This document shows, in pieces, positions 39,063 through 58,574 of a stretch of DNA of 64,000 bases. A program made the position numbers and the translations under genes. The stretch lies in contig VXAA01000920.1 in assembly GCA_013399115.1 (NCBI GenBank), forward strand, positions 676,948-740,947, given 5' to 3'. Below the pieces are notes generated by a model, which saw only the letters and a program-made list of their open reading frames with translations, did no database searches and was not told the origin of the DNA. Position 1 is the stretch's first letter; the number at the start of each line of letters is the position of its first letter. The stretch comes from Anseranas semipalmata. Its lineage: Eukaryota > Chordata > Aves > Anseriformes > Anseranatidae.

Positions 39063-39117
39063 CTTCAGCGAAGCTTGCAAGTCTTGTACTTCTTGTCGGA
39101 GCAGCGATACTTCATCT
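39063..39117 (-). CDS. EEA1: EEA1 exon 4 (start of coiled coil)
   Basis: 55 bp, phase 2 in, phase 0 out. Acceptor TTTATTCAG; donor AAG/gttgga. The split Arg codon (AG+A) is followed by DEVSLLRQEVQDLQASLK, nearly identical to human RDDVTLLRQEVQDLQASLK. This is the first heptad-patterned segment after the zinc finger. Confidence 0.95.
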
Positions 39118-43238: not shown

Positions 43239-43366
43239 CTTTCCGGTGACAGATGACCTTCCCCTCCATGAGTTGAATCGATGCCAGAATTATGAACTGC
43301 TTCATAGTGCTTGAAGAGCTCCTCAGCTGATCCATGAGACTTCATACAGAGAGGACAGATAAAGCC
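43239..43366 (-). CDS. EEA1: EEA1 exon 3 (Rab5-binding C2H2 zinc finger)
   Basis: 128 bp, phase 0 in and phase 2 out. The acceptor (CCTTTTTATAATAG) follows an uninterrupted 21-T tract. It reads GFICPLCMKSHGSAEELFKH, then YEAVHNSGIDSTHGGE and GHLSPE. Zinc ligands are Cys43, Cys46, His59 and His64 in human numbering. Phe41, Ile42, Pro44, Met47 and Tyr60, the residues I recall as contacting Rab5, are kept. Two donors are possible: AAG/gtcatc after 43258 and GAAAG/gtggaa after 43239. I chose the second because only it gives the phase needed by exon 4 and because its extra residues align with human SNLALKR. Confidence 0.96.
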
Positions 43367-53113: not shown

Positions 53114-53808
53114 CAGAATCAGATAGCTGAAGGCTGTTATTTTACATTCTACACTCCACAAATGGAAGAATATAGAAATGCACTACTACTTACAGTCTAT
53201 TAACTGAAACAGCCTTTACATTTTGTTGGGGATATAAAACAATTCCAATAAAATGTTGTGGTTTTGTTGTTGTTGTTGCACCTATAAGGCTCTAAAAATG
53301 TTCAGGAAGACAAGCTTCCAAATTATTTTTTAAATTCCTATCTTCAGTTCCATCCTTTAAGCAATGTATCTGTCTCCCTCTAGAAATCTGCTTTAAAATG
53401 TTAGCAAATAAAAGCTTAAAAGATTTATTTTCACATAGGATTTACCAGATCTGATATTGTATTTATCACGGAAACTGACTCTGAAGTGAAATATATCAAA
53501 TAATGTAAGCCTCATTTACAAAAAAGCCGGGTAAAAGCTGTTCAAAAGGAATACATCAGTGAATACAAGTCTCCCAATACTGCAAATGTTTCATGCGAGA
53601 CAAAACTGCAAACCAGAGAGCTAAACATAAATGAATCCTTCTGCTGAATGCATATTTTTGAATCCTGCGAAGAGATCAACTATTTTTCAGCAAGGAATCA
53701 AAAAAACCACACTTAACAAAAGCTGACATCCAAGCTATGAGAAAAGATGTATGTTCATTTAAAACAGTCCATTACCAAAGCTATTGAAACAAAATAAACA
53801 AGACCCAC

Positions 53809-53931
53809 AGTAACAGCTGGAAGGTCACGAAGCTCCTGTCTTCCTTCTGTCCCAATGTGTTCATTCTGGTAATGTTCAGACAGATCAGTAGGAGTTACAC
53901 ACACTTTCATACATAGTGGACAGATGAAGCC
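53809..53931 (-). CDS. Candidate extra EEA1-type C2H2 zinc-finger exon (unconfirmed)
   Basis: Lies in EEA1 intron 2, same strand. After an acceptor (ATACATTTCACAG) the frame opens GFICPLCMK, identical over nine residues to the start of exon 3, and continues VCVTPTDLSEHYQNEH. The ligands are Cys4, Cys7, His20 and His25 of the exon: C-x2-C-x12-H-x4-H, exactly the spacing of exon 3. Residues equivalent to Phe41, Ile42, Pro44, Met47 and Tyr60, which I recall as lying at the Rab5 interface in human EEA1, are all present. The frame stays open for 57 codons. The donor is uncertain: phase-0 GTs follow 53815, 53809 and 53776, none of them strong; the end given is one of these. No GT downstream of His25 gives the phase needed to join exon 4, so in-frame use would require joining to exon 3. 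It could be a functional cassette exon or a dying duplicate. Known human EEA1 has only one such finger. Confidence 0.6.
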
Positions 53932-56852
53932 CTGTGAAATGTATATTGGTCTTTAAGAAACTAATAAAGACACAAAAAGATTTGGAATCAAATGATGTTC
54001 AAATTCTTATGCTGAAAGTTCTTACAATCACTAAAAGCAAAGTCTGCAGCTATTTCCTTTTGGAAGGCTAATTTTTGCAAACTACATATCAATACCATGG
54101 AGAAAACAAGGAGGAACAGTTATTAAGAACATGAAAATAAATCCATAACACACTTTAAAAGCCAGCAGCATGCTGTATACTATTAAGTGTTTTCCAGACA
54201 CCCTTGGGACCCCCTTCACATGACAGAGGAACATGCTGCATAACAAATCATGAATGGACCGTTATAAGGCATCAAATCAGATCCATCATGCAGCTTCCCA
54301 TAGGCGTGGGACTCAGATGCGTGACAGAAAGAGACCAGGATGGTACACTGAGATCGCAGAAATGTCTCTGTCAATTAATAAGCAAATTTACAGTAGAATG
54401 AGAGGCATAGGCGCTAGTGCAACTGCACGCCCAGCTGGCATTCTCACTTCGGGGAAAAGAAGCATCTTTCTTGGTAGAACTAAAAACAAAAAAGCGGGGT
54501 GGGGGCATTTAGCATACTCAACCAGGAATTTACCAAAGCCAGAAGTTAAATGAGTTTCTGAAGAACCCTCAAGAAACAAAGTTAACCACCTGGAAAAAGC
54601 AGGCTGTAGCACAACGTGCTCTGGGTCTCTGTCCACACTGCCGGCTGCAGGATGGCTGCACCTCCTCGGCACTGCAACTCCCAGACAGGTGCACGTCCAA
54701 AAAGGAGGTCTGTGACAGATCTGTCTAACCACTGCAGCCATCGTGTACTAACAAAAGTGTAAACCACAGGTGGACTCCCAGCAAATGTGGAATATTTAGC
54801 AACCCTATACTGCAGATGGAGTTGCACTGGGACTTAAGATACAAAGGTAGAAGAGGCTCAAACTTTTCCTTCTTTGACTGCACAGTGAATAAAAGATGTA
54901 TTCAGGGTTGATTACAGGTCCATGTGCGATCTGTAGTGCTGGCATGCCACAGAAGGGACTAAAAGAGGCCTTCCTGTCTTGTTGAGCAATGAACAGTTTA
55001 AATTTAACCAGCCTTCCCCACTCCTTTTGTTTCGTAGCACGATTCTCAAAAATCAGGATTGATTTCAACCAGGTTTGAAGGGGGTAGGAAACATGAGAAT
55101 CTACCCAGATTTAATGATTATTCTCCATTTGAATCTTACAGCAATACAAATTAGAAAATCTAGCTAAGAAATTGGAATGAAAACAAGTCAACTGGATTCC
55201 TGATTTTATATAATAATGGAGAACCAGGTGGGATCATAACTATATATGAAGGACAGCAAACATTCTGCAAAGCCTGGCTAAGGTGCTTTTGGAGAGAAAA
55301 TTATCAGAAAAAGAACATCTTAGGCCAGCTGCACAGGAAAAGGAAGGCCGAGAGAAAGGCTCGAGTTGCATGCCACAATGCATAAATCTCAGAAGAATAA
55401 GAAACCATCACCAGCTTCAGAACTCAGTTTCAAACAGATTTTGAAATTTTATGCTAAAGAGAACACCCTACTTGTAACTAATGCAGCAGATAGTGGAATT
55501 ATTGACAACTAAAAGCTACTTTTTAATATATTATACAGTACGAAACAAAAGTGACACGGCAGCCTTTGGCCTGACTTGAGTTTCAACTCAGTAGTAGGAA
55601 GAACGAATGGTGCAGTAGTGCAGGCACACCAACACTTTGAAAGTACGTCCCACGTCAAGAAGATAACACTGCATTAGTACTGAGGTACCTTGTGACACCC
55701 GCCAGCTGTACAGTCAGTGATACTACAGTCATGTTAACAGAATTGTACAATGTTAGCCAAACTTTGTAAAAAGCAATTATCTCATTGCATATTTTTACAC
55801 CATAATTAACTACAAAAGTAATGAGATTTTAGTCTGCAACTTAAGTATATTTATTTGCTTCAGGGACGGTGTAAATATGCATACAAAACAGATTTGGACT
55901 CACAAATGCATGACATGTATAACATGCAGCATAAAATTAAGGAACGTCTGATTATACTGACTGTAATATCACTTCATGAACTAAGAAATAAGCAGATGCA
56001 CAGATGGAAGGCAATTAGGATTTTAAACAGCACAGTGGAAAGTTCTCTTATCACTTATCACAACAGACATAGGAATATTTGAATCATCATATACTTCATT
56101 CAGTGTAAGAAAGGGCACTTTGGTCCCTTTAATGCTGTAATAGGAGTAATTAACCTTGCACTGCATTTGTATGCTAAGCTTGAAGCACATTTGCAAGCTA
56201 GGTAATCAGGCTACGTTAGCACAAAATAGCTTCAACAGCCAGTGAAGTCAGCTTGCATTTTTAAAAGTTAATATTTGACAACACTGTAAATCTAAAGACA
56301 TCGTAATATTTGATTGAAGCAAGAATAACAAGTTATTCTGCTGGCTAAGCATGGCATACAGCACATTAAAAAAAATGGATAGGACTTGCAAGTGGTAGCT
56401 TTATGAACCAAAGAAAACCCAACAAACTTGATATTTTACATGCAGAAGGAGGTTTCCAGTATACATTATAGCTAGCACAAGCAAGGTGAATAGGAAGTAC
56501 AAGTGTGATAAAATGTTGAGCCTTGTTTTTCCAAACTCATAAAACATTTATAAATGAGGAATGTTAAGCTTATGCCTCATTGCTTTTAATTTTAATAATT
56601 CATCTCTATGACTACAGGAAGGATTGCTTGTGACCATTTAGATAAACTTAATCAAAAGTCACATATTTATATCATCTATCCTCACTTTTTTATTTAAATA
56701 AAAACCTATTCTTAGACAATGACACTTTCTAGTGTTTACTTTGTACAGCTGTTACTTAGGTATGGCATCAAAATGAATGCCAACAGCTTCATGGATCAGA
56801 GAAGCAGGGCACAAGGTTTACAACTCCAGTTGCACGTCTCAGCGCACAGTAC

Positions 56853-56945
56853 CTCGGAGGAGCCTTCATTGTTCACATCCACGGCATTTCCTGGTGCGGC
56901 AGATGAATCAGAATCAGAGCTCTGAGACCCAACTCTGCCCGGAGT
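56853..56945 (-). CDS. EEA1: EEA1 exon 2 (N-terminal acidic/serine-rich linker)
   Basis: 93 bp, 31 codons, phase 0 at both ends. Acceptor TTTCTCTTCCAG before ACT; donor GAG then gtactg. It reads TPGRVGSQ, then a Ser/Asp-rich stretch (SSDSDSSAAPGN) and VDVNNEGSSE. This matches residues 9-39 of human EEA1, just before the zinc finger. The middle is diverged from human while both ends are conserved, as expected for a flexible linker. No start codon lies in this exon, so translation must begin in an upstream exon. Confidence 0.93.
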
Positions 56946-58574
56946 CTGGAAGAGAAAGGGGAGGGGAAGATGAAAGTCTACAGACTGTATTTAATAAAGC
57001 ATGGTATGCAACCTGTGCAAAGGCCTCTCTTCTATTTGCTAAAACACGGAAGTATTTTCCCTCCACAAAAGTAATGAAATGAACAAGCTGACAAACCAAT
57101 TACATAATTTTCAGTGCAACACTTCAACAAAAGCTTTTATCAAAGAACTTCAATATAGCAAACAACAAGCAGACACCAAATGCAAAGGCTATGATTTTAA
57201 ATCACTTCGTCTTATGAATGCTCAACACAAAACAAAGAATTAAGCAAAAGTCTGTCCTTATATCACTCGCTCTGATGTTAAATTAGGTCTATCTATCCAA
57301 TAGGAAAACACCAGAAATTACAATCTGAAAATTTTCAGAAGCAGTGAACTGGTACCATACTACTTTCCTGACAACTTATCTACAACCCGAAAGACAAAAA
57401 ATTAAAGAAAATTAAAGAGCAAGGACCCTGCTGATACAATAAGCAAGCAAGAAAGTACACTAGTACTGTAATTCAACGGAGAAAAAAAAATCAAGTGTCA
57501 AGCTTGTGGTTAAGTTAAACCATGTTATCAGTAAGACAACCTATAAAAATAAATTCCAATTAATATGCTGGAAATGAAAACAACAGTATTGATTTGAAAC
57601 CACAGATTTAGAGAAAATAAGCAGATAAATTTGAAATACTACTTGATTCAAAAACTGGCTAGATAGATTTAAATAAGGATTATAAGCAGTGATCCAACTG
57701 TTTTAAATAAATTTAACTTCTCTTACTCATCTCCAGGACTCCACTGCTTGACCAATGACAGAAGAGTTAGCATTCTCAAAGCAAACACTGGTAAATAAAT
57801 TATCTTAATACTGATATGCAATCCTAGTTTCTAAAAAGAATAAAAGTTCATTATCTAATTCCATGATGACAACTGAAAATGGGATGAAGTAATGCTACTT
57901 CAGTATTTCAGCTCATCTGGAAATACCTGTAATGTTATAAAGGAATTTCTCATTTAACACAAGGGGATTAAAGACATAGAATTTTAAATATATAGATTGA
58001 AATCCACAGACAGAGGGACAGAATTCAATAAATAGTTTAGTTTCTAAATCTTGGTGTCTCCAAAATTTTGCTTTAGAATTTTCTTTCTTGAATATATCCT
58101 TTCTTTTCAAACAAATCTGTCTGATTTATAACATACCTACACAACATGCAAGCTTTTCCATACTTTGACACTGAAGTACATTTTCCTGCTGTGTTTTTTA
58201 AAGAACGTTTTATTTCCAACTCATACAAAGACTACAGCGTTGTAGTCAAACAAAAAAATACGTAATAAAAGGTCAAGTTTACTGATTAAGGACTTCATTC
58301 CCAGTGAGATACAGTTAAATTTTAGAACAGCTCCACAGACTGACCAAAGTGAAGTGAGTAGGGGTGACAGAAGCAAGCTATCAGGAGCTGGTGACAGTAA
58401 GTATGAGAGCAACATCTCTCCTCATTCTGGTCTTTTCTGGGGTCATCAGTCAAGTGATCAACATAAGCTGATTTTCCTGCTCCCATATCTGTTTTAACTG
58501 TTACCTTTTTTTTTTTATGCTTCCAAAGAAAACAAGACCCCAGTATAGTTTCCTCCTAGGAGGAGCACACCAAG

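Follow-up and report, generated by a model that had tools for sequence, protein, structure and literature searches.

The large second intron of EEA1 carries, on the coding strand between exons 2 and 3, a further C2H2 zinc-finger segment, here called exon X. We interpret it, with a probability of roughly two in three, as an old tandem duplicate of the zinc-finger exon that would now be a weakly spliced cassette adding a second finger to the protein. In textbooks EEA1 figures as the Rab5 tether; it serves as a standard marker of early endosomes and is taken to have one N-terminal finger. If the interpretation is right, a second finger exon older than the split of birds and mammals would amount to a missed form of EEA1, with a changed grip on incoming vesicles.

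The window, which is the whole stretch of 64,000 nucleotides that was analysed, contains EEA1 on the minus strand from exon 2 onward, as placed by tblastn with a human EEA1 query; exon 1 was not found within these 64 kb. The features on which the argument draws are the following.

56853..56945, minus strand: EEA1 exon 2, from tblastn and sequence, ending in phase 0 (...NNEGSSE|) at the donor GAG|GTACTG
53932..53945, minus strand: 3' splice site of X, TATACATTTCACAG then GGC, 6.65 bits
53809..53931, minus strand: exon X, a C2H2 finger and a 16-residue linker, 123 nt, 41 codons, phase 0 to 0
53857..53931, minus strand: the finger of X, GFICPLCMKVCVTPTDLSEHYQNEH in translation, 25 residues, with C4, C7, H20 and H25
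53803..53811, minus strand: 5' splice site of X, ACT|GTGGGT, 4.12 bits, with its GT at 53808-53807
53773..53802, minus strand: U-rich stretch directly behind the donor hexamer of X, 57% T over 30 nt
53776..53931, minus strand: longer version of X given in an earlier note on this DNA, 156 nt, in frame, with the donor TTG|GTAATG at 53775, 2.67 bits
53755..53757, minus strand: TGA closing the frame of X if the donors at 53808 and 53775 are both unused, as in a terminal-exon or poison reading
43239..43366, minus strand: EEA1 exon 3 with the canonical Rab5-binding finger, 128 nt, phase 0 to 2, from tblastn and sequence
39063..39117, minus strand: EEA1 exon 4, from its start to the matched end, by frame-joining analysis

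The minus strand of 53776-53931 translates without a stop to GFICPLCMKVCVTPTDLSEHYQNEHIGTEGRQELRDLPAVTVGLVYFVSIAL. As the earlier note had claimed, the first nine residues, GFICPLCMK, are all equal to those of exon 3, and translation likewise bears out the presence of all four zinc ligands with the C-x2-C-x12-H-x4-H spacing of exon 3. By alignment, 13 of the 25 finger residues are identical between the two exons and 9 of the 12 differences fall between the second Cys and the first His, both as claimed. The acceptor lies directly before GGC in X (which starts GGC TTC ATC TGT) and in exon 3 alike, so that both begin in phase 0, the phase in which exon 2 ends; the claim of a shared acceptor phase thus holds. 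Against Pfam, X remains below the cut-offs of zf-Di19 (18 vs 27.5), zf-C2H2_4 (17.7 vs 27) and zf-C2H2 (16.2 vs 25.2), and since the true exon 3 does so too (best 25.5 vs 27), this test does not separate the two.

Several observations point to common descent of X and exon 3. A degenerate pattern of the nine-codon start occurs at two places in the window, X and exon 3, and nowhere in 100 shuffles. A search of the whole genome with X gave four first-look candidates, all of which were scored: X itself, the finger L010 (E 0.043), which is of the rabenosyn type, EEA1 exon 3 (E 1.6) and a fourth finger (E 2.1) that matches KCMF1 entries in PDB. The 25 codons of X and exon 3 differ at 32 nucleotides, distributed 8/7/17 over the three codon positions, and at least 17 third-position differences would arise by chance with a probability of 0.002; none of the four differences in the first nine codons changes the residue. 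By the Nei-Gojobori method dN is 0.38, dS being saturated and not computable. When as many changes were placed at random, at least 13 identities without a stop were retained in 0.08% of 100,000 neutral runs. Given the excess of silent changes and the neutral runs, an ancient divergence of X and exon 3 with selection on the protein is well supported by the sequence comparison. A chance match was rejected on the shuffles, the genome search and the neutral runs, and an origin as a mobile element or retrocopy on the single occurrence of X found in this genome. Rfam had no match on the window, and scans of viral_contigs and genome_contigs with the X pattern had none each.

The earlier note had proposed a search for X among bird, reptile and mammal sequences, and carriers were found in birds, in a turtle and among mammal-like records. 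A protein search with the 52-residue reading of X placed 11 of 11 candidates at E <= 5.3e-6, and a profile search placed 31 of 848 candidates at E <= 10. The carriers of X are 22 database proteins at E <= 3.4e-12, in 21 of which the finger is covered, P0012 having the linker only. Those with names include two owls (Athene cunicularia and Bubo bubo), a parrot (Amazona collaria), a tinamou, which is a palaeognath (Nothoprocta perdicaria), a fairywren (Malurus melanocephalus) and, outside birds, a turtle (Chrysemys picta bellii). Some further carriers are mammal-like, a label that we assume from P0018, which bears a mammalian EEA1 N-terminus. The other nine profile matches are weak (E 0.05 to 7.8). 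Six of these nine were examined, and five contain the start MAE.EGFICPLCM and are presumably rabenosyn-like, while the sixth, P0026, is a different finger that belongs to this kind in a broad sense.

Together with X of the window these proteins form a set of 23 rows, 22 of which cover the finger. GFICPLC is kept in all 13 rows that cover the start of the finger, and M8, K9, L17, E19, H20, Y21 and H25 are kept in 22 of 22, counts to be read with the fact that the row-finding pattern itself required several conserved positions, including H20 and H25 (only P0012 failed it). No zinc ligand is lost at any covered position (C4 and C7 in 13 of 13 rows, H20 and H25 in 22 of 22). Lost Cys or His ligands in relatives, which the earlier note had named as evidence against a used exon, did not appear in the 22 rows; these are protein-database rows, among which losses of X are uncountable because broken copies would hardly enter such a database. 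Between the second Cys and the first His, X has a conserved make-up of its own (C11 in 20/22, T13 in 20/22, D16 in 21/22, S18 in 19/22 and E19 in 22/22). Unlike the ligands and the core, the linker behind the finger varies between rows, and from the start of the finger to the donor there are 41 or 42 codons, always in frame, in each of the 19 countable rows.

That X is no more than a dead copy of an exon and has survived by chance, as its weak donor and the intronic look of the tail past that donor might suggest, is a reading that these data already largely refute and to which we give very little credence. Neutral simulation, in which the divergences were assumed and the target was the 20-21 of 25 residues that X of this bird shares with the mammal-type or turtle copy, reached that target in none of the 60,000 runs made for each of five settings from 0.6 to 1.3 changes per site; at 0.3 changes per site, 0.57% of the runs kept 20 of 25.

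The age of the duplication can be judged from the same rows. Sauropsid X and mammal-type X are identical at 17-20 of 25 positions (42 pairs), X and exon 3 at 12-15 of 25 (39 pairs), and bird and human exon 3 at 22 of 25. Because X is closer across the sauropsid/mammal-type divide than it is to exon 3, the duplication is very likely older than the split of birds and mammals. That split took place more than 300 million years ago. In a tree on 27 columns the exon 3 rows are grouped with a support of 99/100 and are drawn inside a comb of X rows, a single X clade appearing in 32% of the bootstrap trees.

Splice signals were scored with vertebrate matrices. On this scale the acceptor of X (6.65 bits) compares with that of exon 3 (6.69 bits), and 52 of the 879 AGs of intron 2, X included, score at least as high. 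The best in-frame, stop-free donor behind the finger is that at 53808; with 4.12 bits, as against 4.51 for the donor of exon 3, it is weak, as 63 of the 849 GTs of intron 2, itself included, reach its score. Use of this donor makes 53809 a more likely right-hand end of X than 53776, where the earlier note had placed it. The donors at 53828, 53814 and 53804 were discarded as weak, and the GT at 53904 (5.23 bits, in frame and scoring above 53808) as lying inside the finger. Where the donor is read through it encodes V-G, which is kept in all 20 rows that read through, turtle and mammal-type included; as to the remaining three of the 23, P0013 splices at the donor and P0010 and P0011 are out of frame before it. 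The 30 nt behind the donor hexamer belong to the top 2.5% of intron-2 30-mers in U-richness and exceed in this respect each of the other 17 EEA1 donors compared, several of which had been placed by score near tblastn ends. This stretch is a candidate splicing enhancer of the TIA1/TIAL1 type.

A separate observation concerns 53755-53808 on the minus strand, where relatives that read through show an open hydrophobic tail (VTVG.VYF...) and P0009 seems frame-shifted. This tail could reflect conserved splice control or be the tail of a terminal exon.

X has the attributes of a cassette exon: an AG acceptor and a GT donor in matching phase, a length that is a multiple of three, and no stop. Added before exon 3, it leaves the frame of EEA1 intact through exon 4, whereas X joined directly to exon 4 reads PAVTR*, an immediate stop. 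Since X runs from phase 0 to 0 and exon 3 from phase 0 to 2, X cannot substitute for exon 3, and a mutually exclusive tandem exon is thereby excluded. No premature stop arises with the donors at 53808 or 53775, but one does with a later donor or when exon 3 is skipped.

Such stops are the basis of a rival reading, in which X is a poison exon: a later donor or skipping of exon 3 would bring in a stop and the message would be destroyed, so that X would set the amount of EEA1 and not its form, as a conserved switch. Kovalak et al. 2021 (PMC8091538) describe for EEA1 a conserved alternative 3' splice site, unannotated, whose use in human HEK293 cells creates a poison cassette exon and thereby an NMD isoform. 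Like X, this is an unannotated cassette of the same gene with a conserved 3' splice site, although it is described as NMD-inducing only. The human exon could be X, in which case the use of X in human cells would already be on record under another reading and the meaning of X would change. Besides the immediate stop upon joining to exon 4, the protein P0018, which reads beyond the X donor, and the TGA at 53757-53755, behind which a possible donor lies at 53712 (3.05 bits), fit such a role. With the donor at 53808, however, X is a stop-free multiple of three in frame with exon 3, and its conservation tracks the finger, with fixed ligands and core, a free linker and whole-codon changes in length, and not the stretch as a whole; a poison exon needs no finger. 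This finger-shaped conservation speaks for X protein being made at least sometimes, and we consider the poison reading unlikely, albeit the most serious of the rivals.

Among the protein records, exon 2, X and exon 3 are all joined in P0013, an NCBI gene model named "early endosome antigen 1 [Malurus melanocephalus]", which runs in frame through exons 1 and 2, the 41 residues of X, and exon 3. Its X ends at the equivalent of the donor at 53808, which had been ranked best before P0013 was examined. One genome of this fairywren was annotated with MAKER (PMC10072822), and P0013, if it derives from that genome, as we assume, may be a prediction only. Exons 1 and 2 are joined to X of the mammal type in the mammal-like, transcript-like record P0018 (MLRRILQRTPGR...NNESSSE|GFICPLCMKRC...), which has three members and two contigs, the longest of 930 nt. 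A joining of this kind requires RNA or a retrocopy. Past the donor of X, P0018 continues without joining exon 3 and ends VTVGPVYFVLAAWLWVA.

P0018 thereby lends itself to a further reading, in which X serves as an alternative last exon. Translation of exons 1-2-X would then stop at the TGA at 53757-53755, and the product, a short soluble protein with one finger and a hydrophobic tail, could be a competitor of EEA1 for Rab. The rows that extend past the donor do have an open tail, though by construction, as they are database reading frames, and an AATAAA lies downstream at 53429. Set against this, P0009 seems frame-shifted just past the donor with its finger intact, the U-rich flank of the donor would translate as hydrophobic in any case, and P0013 splices X to exon 3, all of which makes a last exon decidedly improbable in our estimation.

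The UniRef models of the two owls, the parrot and the tinamou have X preceded by sequence from outside any known exon or by a shifted frame. The first parts of P0002, P0003, P0010 and P0011 map best either near 54225-54187, where there is no known exon, or to exon 2 read in a shifted frame, at 56961, and these four were rejected as transcript proof on that account. The turtle model P0006 seems to read through the acceptor of X, and the eagle owl and tinamou models leave X before the donor. From such odd starts and exits it follows that gene finders detect X; the mode of splicing is not thereby given. A full-length protein search with X gave one candidate, none scored, and no EEA1-sized protein with X, which clustering at 90% could hide.

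The proposal in the earlier note, that X is an alternatively used exon giving EEA1 an additional finger, is thus upheld in part. An intact finger exon under long constraint at the protein level, a gene model and a record joining X to exon 2 agree with it, and the reading of X as an alternatively used exon is well supported by evolution, as judged from sequence; its symmetric phase 0-0 permits addition to exon 3 and not a swap. In the cassette interpretation that we prefer, the EEA1 zinc-finger exon would have been duplicated in tandem and the copy would have become a cassette exon in intron 2. Splicing of exon 2 to X and of X to exon 3 would add 41 residues in frame, and the result would be two EEA1-type fingers in tandem at the N-terminus, with X adjoining the final glutamate of exon 2 and followed by the canonical finger. 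Inclusion would probably be restricted to some cells, because the donor is weak and may need a factor that acts on the U-rich tract, such as TIA1/TIAL1. The finger of X would be expected to fold on zinc and may bind Rab5 or a related Rab, providing a second or altered N-terminal grip on the incoming vesicle.

Among the residues of the canonical finger, P44, M47 and Y60 are, we assume, contacts to Rab5. The F41A/I42A substitution impairs Rab5 binding by EEA1 (PMC10397212). In X the equivalents of all five positions are kept, as the earlier note had observed for this bird: F2, I3 and P5 in 13 of 13 rows, and M8 and Y21 in 22 of 22. With the equivalents of F41 and I42 retained in every covering row, it is plausible that X binds Rab5 or one of its close relatives, and its own conserved make-up between the second Cys and the first His suggests a Rab preference different from that of the canonical finger. 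A more far-reaching version can be offered only tentatively, and we would sooner doubt it than not: X would be an unannotated second-finger exon of amniotes, more than 300 million years old, with a face of its own (C11, T13, D16-L-S-E) and a different preference for a Rab or Rab5 isoform, and regulated splicing would let EEA1 alternate between one finger and two, the two-finger tether being able to grip two Rabs at one end.

In PDB, the best sequence match of X is the N-terminal C2H2 finger of human EEA1 (3mjh chain B, E 0.0064), a product of the same gene that has the same spacing and shares with X the residues F, I, P, M and Y at positions 41, 42, 44, 47 and 60 and their equivalents; from the canonical finger of this bird, encoded by exon 3, X differs at 12 of 25 positions, mostly from the second Cys to the first His. 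With the N-terminal C2H2 finger of Rabenosyn-5, X shares GF.CPLC.K and L..HY...EH, and L010 is its best non-self match in the genome, but this finger belongs to a different gene and is identical at only 12 of 25 positions. The tree, which is weakly resolved, also sets the rows of rabenosyn type apart from X and exon 3 (87/83). X also resembles the tandem duplicated, mutually exclusive homologous exons described in PMC9741552 in being an old duplicate of a neighbouring coding exon with its structural residues kept; unlike the substitution of those exons, a swap of X and exon 3 breaks the frame. EEA1 is absent from the main text of that paper and of PMC5740500, and from the main text of PMC11632617, which deals with cryptic poison exons. 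Among the literature matches listed, as judged by title or the start of the abstract and with most subscription journals outside the scope, no description of a second EEA1 finger exon was found, PMC8091538 alone having a bearing on X.

About 270 nt upstream of X, at 54187-54225 on the minus strand, the Ensembl-type models of owl and parrot begin their X protein. In this bird the segment reads CHVKGVPR.../KGVPRVSGKH, and it may represent a second, minor exon upstream of X or else a pipeline artefact.
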